A stretch of 45,328 nucleotides of DNA from Bdellovibrio sp. CG22_combo_CG10-13_8_21_14_all_39_27 (GCA_002786715.1 PCTW01000062.1:1-45328); one strand, 5' to 3'. Positions 8,562 through 16,270 are shown, counted from the stretch's first letter. The notes: generated by a model from the letters alone, not told the origin. Made by a program: numbers and translations.

Positions 8562-9980
8562 TCAGACGGCACAGCAACTTAAAGACTTAACATCTTTATC
8601 AAAAGTTTGGGCCGCGAGTTTAACCGCCTCACTTAAGGTAAGATAGGGATGTAGTTCTTTTGCAATTTCAGAAATGGGAAGTTGATAACGAATCATTAAA
8701 CTGAGTTCCATTAGCAGTTCGGCCCCTTCTGGGGCTATTATTCTGGCCCCAATGAGTCGATCAGTTCCAGTTTGTCTTAAAAGCTTAATAAACCCTCTGG
8801 TATCTCTCGCTGCGATGGCACGGGGAACATTAGAAAGCTCCAATAGGGAAATATCGTACTCTATGCCTTTCGCTTTTGCTTGGGATTCATTGAGTCCAAT
8901 TCCGGCAATCTGTGGATCAGAAAAAATAACCCATGGAACAACATCGTAGTTTGATGCTCGTGAGTTTCCTGTAAAAGCGTTTTCAGCGGCGAGATTGCCT
9001 TCATAGGCAGCAACATAAACAAGTGCGGGTGTTGCAAGCACATCTCCTGCGGCATATATATTTTCGATGTTTGTTTGGCCAAACTCATTAACCATAATAC
9101 TACCATCAGTATTTGTTTTGACTCTGGCCAATTCAAGGCATAAATTCTTTGTATTGGGCTTTCTTCCTGTTGCAATTAAAATTTTTGAAAAACTCTTTGA
9201 AAATGATTCCTCATCCTTAAAAAGATTCACTAAAACATTGTCACCAGATTTGTTAATCTCCTTAACAGAGGTATGATTTAAAATTTCTATCCCCTCAGTA
9301 CGAAGATAATTCGTCATCCACGCGGAGGCGTCATCGTCCTCTTGGAACAAAATTTCACTTCTTTGAACGATCGTCACTTTAGTTCCTAACCGCGAAAACA
9401 TTTGTGCTATTTCAAGAGCAATATAGCCACCACCGATCACGGCCAGAGTTTCTGGTAGTTCTTGCAACTCAAAAGCTGTTTTACTAGTTAGATATGGAAC
9501 ATTTTCAATTCCGGCAATAGGAGGAATAACGGATTCACTTCCTGTCGAAATGAGTATCTTTTGGACACTAATGATTTGATCCCCCACATTGAGATGGTGT
9601 TGATCACTAAACTTGGCCTCTCCACTTATGAGTTTAATGTTTGGATTTTTATCCAGTACAGACTGATACTTTCCAATTTGAAGACTTTCTACAAGTTGAT
9701 CTTTTTCTTCGACTAATTTCTTAAAATCTACTTTAATCTTCGCAGAGGAAAGTCCCTCGAAGTGAATTTGCTCCGCCTTAAATTTGGCTTCTGCTGCTCG
9801 AATTAATGTCTTAGATGGAACGCAACCAAAATTAACACAAGTTCCTCCAATCGTGCCCTTCTCAATCATGATGATAGACTTTCCAAGCTCGGTTGCTTTT
9901 ATGGCGGCCGCAAAAGCAGCTGAGCCACTGCCAATAATGGCAAAGTCAAAATCATATTGAGGAGATTTACAGCAGTCCAT
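8562..9980 (-). CDS. merA: Mercuric reductase MerA
   Basis: A 472-aa flavoprotein that reduces Hg(II) to Hg(0) with NADPH. It shows the FAD-binding IIGSGSAAFAAA, the redox disulphide GGTCVNFGCVPSK (Cys48 and Cys53), the second dinucleotide fold AVIGGGYIALEIAQ, the FAD-contacting NIYAAGDV, and the C-terminal vicinal Cys pair (Cys469-Cys470) in SLSCCAV that is diagnostic of MerA and absent from lipoamide dehydrogenases. The N-terminal HMA metal-binding domain found in many MerAs is missing, leaving only CC at residues 3-4. The start lies 3 bases after the merP stop. It is the last gene of merTPA. Confidence 0.95.
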   Translation of the reverse strand: MDCCKSPQYDFDFAIIGSGSAAFAAAIKATELGKSIIMIEKGTIGGTCVNFGCVPSKTLIRAAEAKFKAEQIHFEGLSSAKIKVDFKKLVEEKDQLVESLQIGKYQSVLDKNPNIKLISGEAKFSDQHHLNVGDQIISVQKILISTGSESVIPPIAGIENVPYLTSKTAFELQELPETLAVIGGGYIALEIAQMFSRLGTKVTIVQRSEILFQEDDDASAWMTNYLRTEGIEILNHTSVKEINKSGDNVLVNLFKDEESFSKSFSKILIATGRKPNTKNLCLELARVKTNTDGSIMVNEFGQTNIENIYAAGDVLATPALVYVAAYEGNLAAENAFTGNSRASNYDVVPWVIFSDPQIAGIGLNESQAKAKGIEYDISLLELSNVPRAIAARDTRGFIKLLRQTGTDRLIGARIIAPEGAELLMELSLMIRYQLPISEIAKELHPYLTLSEAVKLAAQTFDKDVKSLSCCAV

Positions 9981-9983
9981 GAA

Positions 9984-10271
9984 TCATCCTTTGTTGCATT
10001 GTAGTAGTGTTGCCTTGTATCCAACTGAGTCAATTTTCTTTTTGATTTCATCCGAGTTTGTTTTTGTATCGTTGAATTGCACTTCTGCTTTTTTTTCATC
10101 AAGTGACACTTTTATATCCTCTATACCATCGAGCTTTTTAACGGCAACTTTAGTTGTTATTGTACAAGCCGCACAAGTCATTCCTTCAACCGCAAAACAG
10201 GCCATTTTTGATTCTGCAAAAGCGCCTTGGGCAATAATAGATGCAAATAATGTCAGTAATAAATTTTTCAT
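9984..10271 (-). CDS. merP: Periplasmic mercury-binding protein MerP
   Basis: A 95-aa HMA-fold protein. A signal peptide ends at GAFAES, followed by the metal motif GMTCAAC with two Cys, then KLDGIEDIKVSLDEKKAEVQF and the closing helix. MerP captures Hg(II) in the periplasm and hands it to MerT. A third Cys near the C-terminus (LLQCNKG) is unusual, and one lies just after the signal peptide (MACFAV). It sits between merT and merA, 19 bases after merT. Confidence 0.92.
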   Translation of the reverse strand: MKNLLLTLFASIIAQGAFAESKMACFAVEGMTCAACTITTKVAVKKLDGIEDIKVSLDEKKAEVQFNDTKTNSDEIKKKIDSVGYKATLLQCNKG

Positions 10272-10290
10272 TTTAAATCTCCTCGTTTTT

Positions 10291-10659
10291 TTAAAATATC
10301 CAAGCTACAATATACGGGGAAGCTAAACCTAGTACCGCAATGGCAAATCCTATCCAATAAGCAATGACCATCTTTCGGTACTTTTTGGGATCAGCACAGA
10401 TTGATCCGGGTTCACAAACCTTTCGTTTTTTATAAAGTGTGTACCCAGCAAAACTAAATATGCCAATGACTAGAAAAATAAGTGGAGTTCTAAAGGCATC
10501 GAATTTTGCTAAAGCTGCGGCACCAGATACACCTAAGAGGGTTAGGACAAGTGGCCCGATACAACAAAGGGAAGCTAAAAGCCCTGCCACTGCTCCTGCT
10601 CCGATAAAAGCTCCTGTTCTATTTTCTATTGGTTTTTGATTTTTAATTTTCAACCTCAT
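10291..10659 (-). CDS. merT: Mercuric ion transporter MerT
   Basis: A 122-aa inner-membrane protein with three TM segments. TM1 carries the conserved Cys pair (LASLCCIGPL), and the cytoplasmic loop has the second pair (CEPGSIC), matching MerT, which passes Hg(II) from MerP to MerA. The ATG at 10659 is the likely start; further upstream in-frame codons run into the divergent promoter. It is the first gene of merTPA, driven by a promoter with a 20-base spacer shared with merR2. Confidence 0.92.
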   Translation of the reverse strand: MRLKIKNQKPIENRTGAFIGAGAVAGLLASLCCIGPLVLTLLGVSGAAALAKFDAFRTPLIFLVIGIFSFAGYTLYKKRKVCEPGSICADPKKYRKMVIAYWIGFAIAVLGLASPYIVAWIF

Positions 10660-10674
10660 ATGTCTTCTTGTTCG

Positions 10675-10706
10675 ATTATAAGGTATGTAGTATAGTACCA
10701 AGTCAA
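10675..10706 (-). promoter_or_regulatory. Mercury-responsive promoter/operator of merTPA
   Basis: On the - strand: TTGACT (10701-10706), a 20-base spacer and TATAAT (10675-10680), with the dyad GGTA...TACC in the spacer. On the + strand, TTGTTC (10668-10673) and TATAGT (10691-10696), 17 bases apart, may drive merR2. Confidence 0.75.
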
Positions 10707-10717
10707 GGAGAGATGTG

Positions 10718-11113
10718 ATGAAGACAAAAGATATTACCGACAAAACTGGCATAGATAGAGAAACATTAAGATTTTACGAATCAAAAGGACTCCTGCCAGA
10801 GCTAAAGCGTACAGAATCGGGATATCGCATTTACTCAAATAATACGGTTGATCGTATCAAGTTTATACAGATGGCAAAAGAAGGAGGTTTTACGCTTAAT
10901 GAAATAAAAGAGCTTATTGACTTACAGCAACGTAAAGGTGCATGTAAAACGAGTCGAGACATCGTTAAGATAAAAAAAAATGAAGTCGCTCAAAAGATAA
11001 AAGCCTTGAACAAAATGGACAAAATACTAACTCGATTTATTTCTGAATGTGAGAAAAATGGGGAAGAGGGACTCAAAAAGCCTTGTCATTTTTCATTTGA
11101 TAGTTGCTGTTAA
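10718..11113 (+). CDS. merR: Mercury-responsive regulator MerR (merR2)
   Basis: A 131-aa MerR protein divergent from merT. The HTH reads ITDKTGIDRETLRFYESKGLLP, then SGYRIYSNNTVDRIKFIQMAKEGGFTL. Metal ligands match MerR: Cys in KGACKTS, Cys in SECEKNG and Cys in KKPCHFS, plus a C-terminal CC in FDSCC, so unlike merR1 the Hg triad is complete. It represses and, with Hg(II), activates the merTPA promoter by untwisting its long spacer. AAGGAG lies 7 bases before the ATG at 10718; a GTG three bases earlier is possible. Confidence 0.92.
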   Translation: MKTKDITDKTGIDRETLRFYESKGLLPELKRTESGYRIYSNNTVDRIKFIQMAKEGGFTLNEIKELIDLQQRKGACKTSRDIVKIKKNEVAQKIKALNKMDKILTRFISECEKNGEEGLKKPCHFSFDSCC

Positions 11114-11132: not shown

Positions 11133-11531
11133 TCAAACGATTTCTTCCTTTTCGCCTTTTAGAAACCTAAAGACATCGACAAAATCTAAGACAAGGGAGA
11201 CTCCATTGAAGAGAGTAACGACAAGTAGCCAAAGTCTAAAGGCTGAATCTAGAAGCGACCAATTTTTGATTTGGATTAAGCAGAAATACATAAAAGGAAG
11301 CCAGAACAAGATATGACCTAAGCCTAAGAGTCTAACAAACCCGTGTTTAGCATAAATGAATGTCATAATGACCATTGCTCCTATCATGGAAATGAGTGCA
11401 AACTTTCCCTCAAACGTTGTAAAAAAAATGACTCCTCCGACGAAATTAATCATTGAAAGCAGCATGACCCAAATGTTCCAAGGAAAGGGCATGGTGAAAA
11501 TTTTCTTCATAAGCTCGATCATCGTTTTCAT
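11133..11531 (-). CDS. Small integral membrane protein, unknown function
   Basis: A 132-aa protein with about four predicted TM helices (around WVMLLSMINFVGGVIFF, FALISMIGAMVIMTFIYA, LGHILFWLPFMYFCL and FRLWLLVVTLFNGVSLVL). No conserved charged or Cys motifs stand out. It is divergent from the tetR gene and its start lies close to the TetR-like operator, so it may belong to that regulon. AGGAG lies 6 bases before the ATG. It converges on merR2 with a 19-base gap. Confidence 0.75.
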   Translation of the reverse strand: MKTMIELMKKIFTMPFPWNIWVMLLSMINFVGGVIFFTTFEGKFALISMIGAMVIMTFIYAKHGFVRLLGLGHILFWLPFMYFCLIQIKNWSLLDSAFRLWLLVVTLFNGVSLVLDFVDVFRFLKGEKEEIV

Positions 11532-11551
11532 TGAGAGCTCCTAAATATTGG

Positions 11552-11580
11552 TTGATATTTGGACCGATCGGTACTATATT
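11552..11580 (+). promoter_or_regulatory. Promoter and operator of tetR gene
   Basis: TTGATA (11552-11557), a 17-base spacer and TATATT (11575-11580). The spacer contains the perfect palindrome ACCGATCGGT (11563-11572), typical of AcrR/TetR-type operators. Confidence 0.7.
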
Positions 11581-11587
11581 AATTATC

Positions 11588-12175
11588 ATGAGTATTGGAA
11601 GACCACAAGAGTTTAATTATGATGAAGTCCTTGATAGGGCGACTGAAACCTTTTGGATACTTGGCTATGACGGGACCAGTATGGTTGATTTACTAAGCAA
11701 AACGGGACTTTCGAAAAGCAGTTTGTATCAAACCTTTGGCGGCAAAGCTGAACTGTTCCAAAAATGTTTAGAAAATTATACTCGTTTCATGTCAAAGTCT
11801 TTATTGAATGAACTAAAAAAATATGAATCAGGAAAGGATTTTATTGAATATGTATTGATCAGTTCCACAAAAGAAGCAAATTCTAAGACGAAACCTCGAG
11901 GTTGTTTTATAATGAACACGGCCACAGAATTTTCAAAACGAGATTCTGCCATTTTAGGTTATGTCGAAAATGGAATTAGTGAATTTAGAAGAATTTTTAT
12001 CCTTGCTCTTGCAAAGTCTCAAATGAATGGTGAAATTGATAAGCATTTAGATCTCGAAGAAGTATCCTTTTATATAATAAGTGTGATGACTGGCCTAAGG
12101 ACATTGATAAAGGGGGGAATGAAGGAAGCAGAAGCATTAACAACTATAAAGTTGGCAATGACGTGTATTAAGTAA
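11588..12175 (+). CDS. TetR/AcrR-family repressor
   Basis: A 195-aa repressor. The N-terminal HTH reads LDRATETFWILGYDGTSMVDLLSKTGLSKSSLYQTFGGKAELF, a textbook TetR domain. The C-terminal ligand domain has the PRGCFIMNTATEF segment seen in redox- or electrophile-responsive relatives; Cys in RGCF could be a sensor (inference). The ATG lies only 7 bases after the -10 element with no Shine-Dalgarno sequence, so translation may be leaderless. It probably represses itself, the divergent membrane protein and the AhpD-like gene 3' of it. Confidence 0.9.
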   Translation: MSIGRPQEFNYDEVLDRATETFWILGYDGTSMVDLLSKTGLSKSSLYQTFGGKAELFQKCLENYTRFMSKSLLNELKKYESGKDFIEYVLISSTKEANSKTKPRGCFIMNTATEFSKRDSAILGYVENGISEFRRIFILALAKSQMNGEIDKHLDLEEVSFYIISVMTGLRTLIKGGMKEAEALTTIKLAMTCIK

Positions 12176-12329: not shown

Positions 12330-12884
12330 ATGATGAAACATCTAGAAAAAATTTCTAAAAACAACGCAAAAAGTGAATCTTTAGTACTTCTTGAACAAGT
12401 TCAAGAAAAATACTGTTTTATTCCCAATTTAATGAGCACTTTTGCAAATTCGCCAGTGACCTTGAAGGCGTATTTAGCTTTAGCTGACTTGATGGGGAAA
12501 ACTTCGTTTACTTCAGAAGAGCAACAAGCCATTTTACTGGCCACAAGTGTAGAGAATAACTGTGAGTACTGTGTTGCTGCACATTCGATGATTGCTTTAA
12601 AAATGGCCGGAATGAAGAGTGAAACATTAGAGTCAATACTTAAAGGATCAAAAATATCAAATTCAAAAATTGATGCCCTTGTGAAGTTTACCAGAGGGGT
12701 CGTTAAGTCGAGAGGTTTTGTCGATGATTTACTGGTAAAAGAGTTTCTCGCTGCGGGATATGGCCAACAACAAATTCTAGAAGTTGTGCTGGGAGTTGCA
12801 ATGAAAACATTGAGCAACTACACGAATCATTTGGCCGAGACTGAAATAGATGTTCCATTTAAGGAATTTAGCTGGATTAAATAG
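12330..12884 (+). CDS. AhpD-like / carboxymuconolactone decarboxylase family protein
   Basis: A 184-aa all-helical protein of the AhpD superfamily. The core ExxxxxxxxxxxCxxCxxxH is seen as EEQQAILLATSVENNCEYC followed by VAAH, giving a catalytic CxxC and the proton-relay His. Such proteins reduce peroxides through thiol chemistry, though many members are uncharacterised. It follows the tetR gene on the same strand with a 154-base gap that carries a second TetR-like operator, so peroxide or electrophile-inducible expression is likely. Either of two tandem ATGs (12330, 12333) could start it. A bidirectional terminator follows. Confidence 0.88.
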   Translation: MMKHLEKISKNNAKSESLVLLEQVQEKYCFIPNLMSTFANSPVTLKAYLALADLMGKTSFTSEEQQAILLATSVENNCEYCVAAHSMIALKMAGMKSETLESILKGSKISNSKIDALVKFTRGVVKSRGFVDDLLVKEFLAAGYGQQQILEVVLGVAMKTLSNYTNHLAETEIDVPFKEFSWIK

Positions 12885-12891
12885 ACTTTTA

Positions 12892-12924
12892 TAAATGGAG
12901 ATGAAATGACTTTATCTCCATTTA
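12892..12924. terminator. Bidirectional terminator between convergent genes
   Basis: TAAATGGAGAT (12892-12902) and ATCTCCATTTA (12914-12924) form an 11-bp stem with an 11-base loop, with T-rich DNA to the right and A-rich DNA to the left. Confidence 0.8.
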
Positions 12925-12948
12925 TTCATTTTAATTTTTTGTGTGTTA

Positions 12949-13767
12949 TTAAGACTTTTCGTGATCCTGAATTTCGTCATTGATTGTGTAAAAGGGAATA
13001 ATGAGTAACTTAAAAAGCGATATGTATTTAAAGTCTCTGTAGGAGTCGAGACCAATTTTCATTGCAACGTGGCCGTCCTCAGGTTTTTCTTTATAGGTTT
13101 TCAAGAGAAAATCCCAAAACGAAAGGTTAAAACCGAAGTTCTTATTATATTCCTTATCTTTCACTGAATGATGAATTCGATGCATATCTGGTGTTATGAC
13201 TAGAAATCTAAGGACTTTATCGATTGCTGGTGGAATATTGATATTTGAGTGGTTGAACATCGCCATAGAGTTTAAAATGATTTCAAAGAAGAGAATAGAG
13301 TCTGGCGAAGGACCTAAGAGGAGGATGAATAGACTTTTGTAGAGGAAAGAAAAAACGATTTCAATAGTGTGAAATCGATTGCCAGAGCTGACATCTAAAT
13401 CCACATCGATATGATGAATTTTGTGAAATCTCCAGAAAATGGGGAATTTATGAGAGAGAATATGTTGAAAATAAATAAGCAGGTCAAAGATGACCACACT
13501 AAGGATAATTTCAGTCAGATATGAAAGATTTAAAATGTTCAATAGGCCAATTTTATTTCCCCTCAATAATGCAGCAAGAGAAACAAGGCCATAGGGCATA
13601 GAAAGGTGAAGGATTAAGGTATTTAAAAAAGAGAGGCTCAGGTTAGTAAGCCACCTTTTTTTCTTTGGTGCCGTCAACACTCTTTTCGGGATGATCACTT
13701 CGAGAAAGCAAAAGGAAACCAAGAGTATGAAGAAGATTGTTAAACGAAGCTTTAACGAGTCATTCAT
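12949..13767 (-). CDS. Fatty acid hydroxylase / sterol desaturase-family membrane protein
   Basis: A 272-aa non-heme di-iron membrane enzyme. The His clusters of the superfamily are present in order: HILSH, HKIHHID, a further His in FHTIE and FNHSN, and HRIHHSV. At least four TM helices flank them. Such enzymes hydroxylate or desaturate lipids; the substrate here is unknown. The ATG is only 2 bases after the stop of the DUF2063 gene, so it looks like the fourth gene of the bufferin run. That position is normally taken by other accessory genes (DoxX is common), so the linkage is unusual. Confidence 0.88.
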   Translation of the reverse strand: MNDSLKLRLTIFFILLVSFCFLEVIIPKRVLTAPKKKRWLTNLSLSFLNTLILHLSMPYGLVSLAALLRGNKIGLLNILNLSYLTEIILSVVIFDLLIYFQHILSHKFPIFWRFHKIHHIDVDLDVSSGNRFHTIEIVFSFLYKSLFILLLGPSPDSILFFEIILNSMAMFNHSNINIPPAIDKVLRFLVITPDMHRIHHSVKDKEYNKNFGFNLSFWDFLLKTYKEKPEDGHVAMKIGLDSYRDFKYISLFKLLIIPFYTINDEIQDHEKS

Positions 13768-13769
13768 TT

Positions 13770-14540
13770 TTAATAAACTCTTGAGATTATCTTTGTCGTA
13801 ACAATAATGTGAAAAATTTCTAAGAAATCTTGCTGATTTTCAATGTTTGAATCCTCAATGACCGCATCCAATGATAAACCATTTTTAAACTTAGTTAAAA
13901 TATCAAATTGAAACTCAGTAATCTCTTTTGAAAAGAGACTATTCTTGTCTTTGTAGAGAATGACAAACTCTGGATTCTCAAAGTCGAAATGAACGATGTC
14001 TTCTTGCTCCTTTTTTCTTTGATCCCATATTTTATAAACAGCATTTTGAGAACTAAAGAGTTTCACTGCATTTCCAAACTCTAATTTCAGGTGTGGATTT
14101 TCATGAATCTTTAGAAGCTCTGTTAAGGGTACAGAGTCATGTTGCTTCTCATGAAAGAGTTCCTTAAATATCCAATCAAAACGGGCCATATCTTGAATGA
14201 AGGGGATATTGATGGAGTTTTTTAATTCCCCAATAAAATAGGGAAAGGAGTACCCATAGTTTGATAAATTGTATTCGCTAGAATGATGGTTACAGATGTA
14301 CTGTTCACATACTTCAAAAAAAAGTTCATCCCCCATGGAAAACCAAGTGCCTTCGAAAGTTTCACCCAAGGCTTCAGTTAGTCTTGCGATGTAGCCATTT
14401 TGGTGAACCCTCATTGTCTCGACTGAAGATTTTAATTTTCCTGCGGGGATGATATCATCCAGCAACTGTGGAGACTCGATATCTTTGATAATCATTTGAA
14501 CGAATTGATTTTGAAAGTCACTAAACTTATAAATGGCCAT
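13770..14540 (-). CDS. bufC: MNIO partner protein, DUF2063 / BufC-HvfC-like
   Basis: A 256-aa cytoplasmic protein. The N-terminal DUF2063 domain shows FQNQFVQMIIKDI, then SVETMRVHQNGYIARLTEALGETFEGTWFSMGDELFFEVCEQYI, the family pattern (xxRxxIYxxNxxxxLxxALxxxFPxxxxLxG). Partners of this kind recruit the precursor peptide to the MNIO enzyme. The ATG at 14540 lies one base after the MNIO stop and has AAAGAGA upstream; an ATG at 14555 would overlap that gene. Its C-terminal part (residues about 110-256) is less conserved. Confidence 0.85.
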   Translation of the reverse strand: MAIYKFSDFQNQFVQMIIKDIESPQLLDDIIPAGKLKSSVETMRVHQNGYIARLTEALGETFEGTWFSMGDELFFEVCEQYICNHHSSEYNLSNYGYSFPYFIGELKNSINIPFIQDMARFDWIFKELFHEKQHDSVPLTELLKIHENPHLKLEFGNAVKLFSSQNAVYKIWDQRKKEQEDIVHFDFENPEFVILYKDKNSLFSKEITEFQFDILTKFKNGLSLDAVIEDSNIENQQDFLEIFHIIVTTKIISRVY

Positions 14541-14541
14541 A

Positions 14542-15384
14542 TTATCTCTTTTCATTATGATGTTTTTTCCAAATTTCTATCGCTTTAGCGACTTCATTTT
14601 CAACAATCGGAAATTCAGGAACATCTTCATCCCATTCCATCATAAAGGGAATGTGAGGAGCCTTTGCAATATAATGGGAGAAGAGTTCCCATACTTCTGG
14701 ATATACTGGTTTCGAATGTGTATCAAAAAGAAAATCTCCCATATCGGTGAAGCCTGCGAGGTGAATTTGAGCAACGATCCTTTGGGGTATGGAATCAAGG
14801 TAAGTCAGTGGATTAAAATGATGATTGATTGCGCTGACATAAATGTTATTAATATCAAGAAGTAATTTCGCATCGGTTCTCTTAATGACTTCAAGAACAA
14901 AATCCCATTCGAGAAATTCGCTTTGTTTGAAAGTCATATATGTTGAAACATTTTCAACAACGAGAGATCTGCCCAACTTATTTTGGGCATGATCAATATT
15001 ATTAATAACGATTTCAAGAGATTCCTTGGTATAGGGAAAGGGGAGAAGGTCATGAATATTGCTCGGCTTGATTCCTGTCCAGCAAAGGTGGTCTGATACA
15101 ATAAAAGGTTCAATTTCTTCACAGAGAGATCGCAATTTTTGTAAGTAAGTATCACTAGTTCCTGTTGAAGAGAGTAGATTCATTGAAACTCCATGCAGAG
15201 CTATAGGGTAGTCATTTCTTAATTGCTGGAGAATTTGACGTGGTCTCCCCATACTATCCATATAGTTCTCACTGACGGCTTCGAACCACTTGACTTTGAG
15301 TTGCGGTTTATTTTCAAGAAAAGGAAAGTGAGTGGACCTAAGGCCCACTCCTGGTTGACAGATATCTTCATTCAAATGAATCAC
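14542..15384 (-). CDS. bufB: Multinuclear non-heme iron-dependent oxidase (MNIO, DUF692)
   Basis: A 280-aa TIM-barrel enzyme. Family motifs in order: GVGLRSTHFPFL, WFEAVSENYMD, PIALHGVSMNLLSS, IVSDHLCW, LVVENVSTYM, LLLDINNIYVSAINH, QIHLAGF, FDTHSKPV and FMMEWDEDVP; these contain the His/Asp/Glu iron ligands. MNIOs convert Cys in small precursors to thiooxazole or related heterocycles, usually with a DUF2063 partner. The GTG at 15384 overlaps the precursor stop (GTGA) and has AAGAGG upstream, so I prefer it to the ATG at 15423. Confidence 0.9.
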   Translation of the reverse strand: MIHLNEDICQPGVGLRSTHFPFLENKPQLKVKWFEAVSENYMDSMGRPRQILQQLRNDYPIALHGVSMNLLSSTGTSDTYLQKLRSLCEEIEPFIVSDHLCWTGIKPSNIHDLLPFPYTKESLEIVINNIDHAQNKLGRSLVVENVSTYMTFKQSEFLEWDFVLEVIKRTDAKLLLDINNIYVSAINHHFNPLTYLDSIPQRIVAQIHLAGFTDMGDFLFDTHSKPVYPEVWELFSHYIAKAPHIPFMMEWDEDVPEFPIVENEVAKAIEIWKKHHNEKR

Positions 15385-15644
15385 ATCATGGCCTCTTTGA
15401 ATTCTCCACCTTTCTCTAGGCATTCACCTTTTGATAGCTTAACCCAACCTTTGCCTTTGCAAGAGTTTTTGCCCGCGCAGCTATGGCCTTTTCCGCCACA
15501 AGCTCCAGAGCCTTTGCATGAGTTAATGCCATGGCATTCGCCAGCAACGGCCATTTCCGCTGATGTCTTTGCGCTCGTTGAACAGCCTGCGGCCATCATC
15601 ATTCCTGTGAGGGCCAAACCGAGTAGTACTTTTTTGTTTTCCAT
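15381..15644 (-). CDS. bufA: Bufferin-type Cys-rich precursor (BufA2-like), possibly lipidated
   Basis: An 87-aa peptide with an N-terminal signal (MENKKVLLGLALTGMMMAAG) that ends in Cys21, a possible lipobox (AAGC). The mature part has six Cys (37, 43, 49, 56, 62, 75) arranged around two copies of CxGxNSCKG (starting at Cys37 and Cys56) followed by GKGW and KLSKGEC. Bufferins are exported peptides whose Cys are modified by the MNIO enzyme and that bind copper or other metals. It is the first gene of a precursor-MNIO-DUF2063 run with overlapping ends. GGAGGA precedes the ATG. The lipobox would make it a membrane-anchored bufferin (inference). Confidence 0.85.
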   Translation of the reverse strand: MENKKVLLGLALTGMMMAAGCSTSAKTSAEMAVAGECHGINSCKGSGACGGKGHSCAGKNSCKGKGWVKLSKGECLEKGGEFKEAMM

Positions 15645-15676
15645 TTTTCTTCCTCCAATGAAAGAATTATTATTAT

Positions 15677-16270
15677 TTAGTCAACTTTTATTCCTTGGAT
15701 CTCAAGGATAAATGTTACTTCGTTACCAACTGTCAAACCTGCTACTTTCTTCACACCTTTGTTCCATGTTAGTCCAAACTTTGTGCGATCAATTTTTCCT
15801 TTAGCTTCAAAAGCAAGTCTTTGATTTCCCCAAGCATCTTCTGCTCTACCACCCCAGTCTTCGATCTCAAGTGTTATTTTTTGAGTGACCCCTCTGATCG
15901 TGAGATTACCAATAATCTGATGTGGTTTTTTTCCTTTGTATTTAATGTCTAATGACTCAAACGTAATATCTTTAAACTTTTCAACATCAAAAAAATCTGG
16001 AGAACGAAGATGGGTATCGCGATCTGGTTCATTGGTATCTATTGAACTTGCGCTAATTTGAACTTTGAGGTCTGAAAGTTTTCCTGTTTTGTCATCGAAA
16101 TTTCCTGTACCCTCAAATTTATTAAATTTACCGAGAACGTTGGCAAAGGCCAAGTGTCTTATCTTGAAACCTAAATGGGTATGAGATTCATCTAATTTAA
16201 ACTTATCGGCAAAGGCTCCCTGTGAAAGAAGTAAAAAACTTAAGATAAATAATATTTTTGATTTTAACAA
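15677..16270 (-). CDS. YceI-family periplasmic protein
   Basis: A 197-aa secreted protein. A signal peptide ends at GAFAD, followed by the YceI lipocalin-like fold: DESHTHLGFKIRHLAFANVLGKF, TNEPDRDTHLRSPDFFDVEKF, GNLTIRGVTQKITLE and RTKFGLTW. YceI proteins bind amphiphilic isoprenoids such as polyprenyl quinones; the physiological role is open. It starts with TTG, supported by AAGGAGATTACA, and lies 32 bases upstream of the bufferin precursor in the same direction, so it may head that operon. Confidence 0.9.
   Translation of the reverse strand: MLKSKILFILSFLLLSQGAFADKFKLDESHTHLGFKIRHLAFANVLGKFNKFEGTGNFDDKTGKLSDLKVQISASSIDTNEPDRDTHLRSPDFFDVEKFKDITFESLDIKYKGKKPHQIIGNLTIRGVTQKITLEIEDWGGRAEDAWGNQRLAFEAKGKIDRTKFGLTWNKGVKKVAGLTVGNEVTFILEIQGIKVD

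Follow-up and report, generated by a model that had tools for sequence, protein, structure and literature searches.

The locus described here raises the question whether a bufferin operon encodes a new, lipid-linked metallophore system. A first-pass annotation of the window, i.e., the whole stretch of 45,328 nucleotides analyzed, had proposed such a system from two features: a precursor signal ending in a Cys that could belong to a lipobox, and a fatty-acid hydroxylase gene at the end of the unit. The host of the operon is a member of the Bacteriovoracaceae.

Organization of the operon and family membership

The unit comprises five genes, all on the minus strand between positions 12949 and 16270, in the transcription order YceI, BufA2 precursor, MNIO (BufB), DUF2063 (BufC) and fatty-acid hydroxylase (Table 1). 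YceI is separated by 32 nt from the precursor, whose start codon, ATG at 15644, is preceded by the ribosome-binding site GGAGGA. If MNIO starts at its ATG, it shares 43 nt with the precursor; an alternative GTG start at 15384 would leave a 4-nt GTGA overlap with the TGA stop of the precursor. DUF2063 and MNIO overlap by 14 nt, and the hydroxylase starts 2 nt past the DUF2063 stop. These coordinates agree with the gene arrangement first described, i.e., precursor, MNIO and DUF2063 genes that overlap or nearly touch, a hydroxylase 2 bases behind them and YceI just upstream. The precursor gene has a G+C content of 49% compared with 34–38% in its neighbours, which fits a peptide rich in Gly, Cys and Ala.

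Table 1. Features of the bufferin unit and its flank, in window coordinates
Feature	Position	Strand	Basis
YceI-family periplasmic lipocalin-like protein, signal peptide, first gene of unit	15677..16270	-	PF04264
Buf2 (BufA2) precursor, 87 aa, lipobox MAAG-C21, six core Cys	15381..15644	-	NF050166
Predicted lipoprotein signal peptide including lipobox Cys21	15582..15644	-	lipobox by rule; Cys retained in divergent relatives
MNIO enzyme BufB	14542..15423	-	NF050167; PF05114
DUF2063 partner BufC (PME-type 1)	13770..14555	-	PF09836
Fatty-acid-hydroxylase/sterol-desaturase superfamily membrane protein	12949..13767	-	PF04116; three His motifs
15-pair hairpin between convergent CMD and hydroxylase genes	12891..12925	.	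terminator-like on + strand
CMD/AhpD-like protein, CEYCVAAH motif, convergent neighbour	12330..12884	+	PF02627
TetR-family regulator beside CMD	11531..12175	+	PF00440/PF16925

The precursor scored 62.3 bits against the BufA2 model NF050166 (NCBI curated cut-off 60); its core Cys are C37, C43, C49, C56, C62 and C75, and C21 is extra to these. MNIO reached 323.4 bits with NF050167, for which the NCBI curated bufferin maturase cut-off is 310, and in its alignment numerous His, Asp, Glu and Asn residues are invariant. For the DUF2063 protein we obtained 50.3 bits against PF09836 (cut-off 27.2) and no match in a PDB search. YceI matched PF04264 with 146.4 bits (E=1.1e-42, cut-off 23.7) and has the PDB relatives 1wub, 7bwl and 1y0g. 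BufA2 and BufB above their curated cut-offs, a PF09836 partner and the bufA-bufB-bufC order support the assignment as a Buf2 bufferin operon. In other loci, MNIO and DUF2063 form a single ORF (L159, L161-L165, L167, L171, L176, L178, L188, L209); these apparent fusions are mostly from Omnitrophota and also from Turneriella.

Flanking genes and the likely metal

A TetR-CMD pair converges on the unit, and the hairpin in between lacks a T run on the minus strand. In this region 9 terminator-like sites were found versus 3.2 expected, and a promoter scan was uninformative, with 20 sites versus 15.1 expected. TetR-CMD pairs also stand beside the YceI-Buf2 clusters of L108 and L101, and further off in L225; the CMD/AhpD-like neighbour is possibly linked to the operon in function. 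Near the operon of the nearest relative, a CMD gene directly precedes YceI (L025, 6608-7219), and a TetR-CMD pair is found further along the contig of this relative (L225, 9015-10276).

No copper-responsive regulator was identified at the locus. Instead, a mer-like cluster at 8562-11113, 1.8 kb from the bufferin unit, encodes a flavoprotein reductase, HMA/MerP-type and MerT-type proteins and a divergent MerR-type regulator. The operon might hence respond to another metal, e.g., mercury, rather than to copper, and MerC-bufferin fusions are indeed known (PMC12452194). Characterized products of MNIOs that depend on PME1 bind copper, however (PMC12452194, PMC13097082), which makes this alternative quite unlikely, and we retain copper as the probable metal.

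Lipobox of the Buf2 precursor

The signal peptide, MENKKVLLGLALTGMMMAAG-C21, satisfies the PROSITE-type lipobox rule, in line with the lipobox suspected at first. Of the Buf2 precursors gathered from the phylum and in a scan of other genomes, 134 are distinct, and 40 of these have a lipobox Cys. The sample is biased to relatives of the window, so that these 30% are not a family-wide estimate; Cys residues ahead of the core seldom occur at other positions. The lipobox state switches at least 11 times on the MNIO tree, and one supported clade of 43, to which the window belongs, often has the lipobox. L025 and L118, the nearest relatives, retain the Cys, with a linker behind it that differs in sequence and length. 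Retention of an extra Cys at the end of the signal peptide in divergent homologues argues that Cys21 is more than chance.

Signal peptidase I might also act on this signal, as AAG at positions -3 to -1 before Cys21 suits this enzyme as well. Cleavage before or near Cys21 would then yield a soluble periplasmic bufferin with an additional free or metal-binding thiol. Such a product would resemble most Buf2 precursors outside the lipobox set, which have no such Cys and look ordinarily secreted, and in one paralogue pair (L030) Tyr replaces the Cys in one copy. At position -3, several homologous sites, e.g., LMISC, TLASC and LMMASC, nevertheless carry Met or Leu. Signal peptidase II accepts these residues there, signal peptidase I does not, and the Cys persists where the rest of the linker drifts. 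We therefore consider a soluble product unlikely.

Lipidation is in turn likely, as judged from the recurrent lipobox Cys, the drifting linker and two features of the host genome: it encodes homologues of lgt (PF01790) and lspA (PF01252), both above cut-off, and its second Buf2 precursor (contig C34, locus L033 5299-8148) has the lipobox LASC. In that second cluster an opposite-strand gene separates the precursor from MNIO.

Several loci contain more than one precursor. L030 (6082-8949) encodes two, with LLGGC and LLGGY, respectively, at the lipobox position, and thus provides a natural anchoring pair. In L101, L108, L179 and L217, tandem Buf2 precursors, one with and one without lipobox, precede a single MNIO. 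The Buf2 precursors of L090-L095, L098 and L100, all from one genus, are without lipobox, and no MNIO was detected in the flanks examined.

Lipoprotein predictions cover about 16% of Buf2 precursors (PMC12452194). For sister families, lipidation of MNIO products was established by experiment with triacylated DybA and NedA, and lipoprotein signals were also described in a subset of bufferins (PMC12636315). As far as we searched the literature, it contains no experimental demonstration of a lipidated Buf2. Since lipidation is already predicted for Buf2 and shown for sister families, lipid anchoring of Buf2 is an expected variant and not new. Of the first-pass annotation, the lipidated precursor thus stands as likely, whereas its description as a departure from the norm does not, and the claim that a lipid-linked metallophore system would be new falls with the known DybA and NedA and with the hydroxylase, for which we found no recurrence (see below). 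Our data suggest that lipid anchoring of Buf2 is common and selectively kept in Bacteriovoracaceae and several other lineages.

The fatty-acid hydroxylase

The hydroxylase matched PF04116 with 91.3 bits (cut-off 31), and all three His motifs are kept (HILSH, HKIHH, HRIHH). With the curated OlsE model NF052566 it scored 87.6 bits, far below the cut-off of 475, and we rejected an identity as OlsE. A PDB search gave no match. Relatives of the protein occur in 182 of 291 genomes of the phylum.

Intact motifs and a start 2 nt past the bufC stop, by which the gene is probably co-translated, would suit a dedicated pathway for a lipid-linked metallophore, with the hydroxylase as the enzyme that tailors the lipid to which the bufferin is anchored. 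The gene order does not recur, though. Among 68 Buf2 stretches of the phylum and 80 loci from other genomes, no hydroxylase directly follows DUF2063; some of these stretches end before the next gene, and 87 loci have room on the DUF2063-downstream side. The hydroxylase family is likewise absent from the 25 commonest Pfam families in a tally of downstream genes. From the opposite direction, none of the 29 best hydroxylase homologues outside the host genome has an MNIO beside it, within flanks of at most about 1.5 kb. In L144 and L193 a hydroxylase lies some 2.5-3.3 kb off on the opposite strand, and in the nearest relative of the operon (G005) it is about 11 kb away on the same contig. L108, from another family, has the layout TetR, CMD, DUF2063, MNIO, BufA, YceI without a hydroxylase. 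Moreover, contig C36 of the host genome carries a paralogue that groups with the hydroxylase of the window as its sister (support 99). Our literature search gave no paper that joins a sterol desaturase with MNIO and RiPP.

A tailored anchor lipid is thus very improbable, and we rejected the hydroxylase as a conserved tailoring enzyme, given the missing linkage to MNIO or DUF2063 in the other loci examined and the paralogue as sister. The survey of hydroxylase recurrence that the first-pass annotation had suggested hence turned out negative in the other bufferin loci examined, an outcome that this annotation had itself listed as refuting, and its view of the hydroxylase as a system component is not upheld. 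The gene is probably co-transcribed with the operon, yet probably no conserved part of the system. From the lack of recurrence and the paralogue in the same genome, the simplest reading is probably that of a lineage-specific passenger riding on the operon, which may have a role within this single lineage. With this, the hydroxylase drops off the list of likely metallophore-tailoring enzymes.

YceI as a recurrent partner

After the novelty of lipidation and hydroxylase has failed, the YceI linkage is the remaining point of interest. We sampled 64 genes that directly precede BufA2, and 22 of them encode YceI, compared with a background of about 113 matches in 39 genomes of about 3 Mb, i.e., one gene in about a thousand. 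Records with this linkage come from Bdellovibrionota, Omnitrophota, Elusimicrobia, Spirochaetia, Binatia and Deltaproteobacteria, and on the MNIO tree the upstream-YceI state changes at least 13 times. L025, the sister on this tree (support 96), has the order yceI-bufA-bufB-bufC, there without hydroxylase, and its YceI, BufA and MNIO share 72-80% identity with those of the window.

YceI linkage is independent of lipidation: a lipobox is present in 10 of 33 precursors with YceI and in 21 of 70 without, in a comparison that leaves out precursors with other Cys. Since the lipobox is equally frequent in both sets, we rejected, as a general rule, that YceI carries the lipidated peptide. Among the neighbours scanned there was no cytochrome b561 (LcoA) partner.

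YceI is absent from the bufferin landscape paper, and no paper in the searched literature joins YceI with DUF692 or DUF2063. The founding bufferin paper (10.1073/pnas.2408304121) was outside the scope of this search, and the novelty of the YceI-bufferin linkage is therefore provisional.

Proposed function

We propose to read yceI-bufA2-bufB-bufC as the operon of a Buf2-type bufferin (captophorin). Its precursor, predicted to be a lipoprotein, would act as a lipid-anchored copper buffer with YceI as partner; we assign this reading a probability of about 0.72. MNIO-DUF2063 pairs modify Cys, and their products act in the periplasm (PMC12452194, PMC13097082). By analogy with the family, MNIO and DUF2063 would act on the precursor in the cytoplasm and oxidize core Cys, probably to copper-binding 5-thiooxazoles. 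The modified peptide would then be exported by Sec, Lgt would add diacylglycerol to Cys21, and LspA would cut before this residue. Anchored in this way, it would stay at a membrane, probably the outer membrane in view of the Ser after Cys21, and may buffer copper, the presumed metal, at the lipid surface.

For YceI, the function of BcnA among YceI lipocalins (PMC9113575) serves as a guide. Copper contributes to the peroxidation of envelope lipids, and YceI may restrain this process by means of a bound quinone or isoprenoid antioxidant. It is from BcnA and the TetR/AhpD-like CMD neighbours that we infer a joint role of bufferin and YceI; the two could also be linked for a reason other than peroxidation. 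The hydroxylase gene would have arisen by a lineage-specific duplication and come to lie at the 3' end of the operon, and the enzyme more likely acts on general membrane lipids than on the metallophore.

More tentatively, YceI-Buf2 loci, sometimes with TetR and AhpD-like CMD genes, might form a distinct and widespread class of bufferin islands, seen here outside Pseudomonadota. They would unite copper buffering, lipid-anchored in some lineages, with quenching of lipid peroxyl radicals by YceI. We regard this generalization as speculative and rather doubtful at present. If true, YceI-Buf2 islands would be a combined defence against copper-driven lipid peroxidation, and the linkage leads to the testable proposal that bufferins and YceI lipocalins jointly counter metal-driven lipid damage.

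Comparison with known systems

The hydroxylase belongs to the same superfamily as OlsE-type lipid hydroxylases and shares their His motifs, but remains below the curated OlsE cut-off. DoxX is a common, non-obligatory member of bufferin clusters, and about 9 of the 52 downstream genes that we sampled encode it. In the cluster of the window no DoxX was found; here the gene after bufC is the fatty-acid hydroxylase. Like Buf2 bufferins, or captophorins, the unit has a precursor above the curated cut-off with six core Cys and a Sec signal, and the bufA-bufB-bufC order. It differs from them by yceI in front, the lack of doxX behind and the hydroxylase at the end, and it shares the lipobox with the fraction of the family predicted to be lipoproteins.

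With the DAG-RiPPs DybA and NedA (PMC12636315) the precursor has in common that it is an MNIO substrate with a lipoprotein signal, as also predicted there for a bufferin subset; its signal peptide closes with a lipobox Cys, and the host has lgt and lspA homologues. In contrast, DybA is chryseobasin-like and NedA an oxazolin, whereas the peptide of the window is a Buf2. YceI, finally, shares family and periplasmic signal with the BcnA/YceI lipocalins (PMC9113575) and differs from them in its linkage to bufferin genes.
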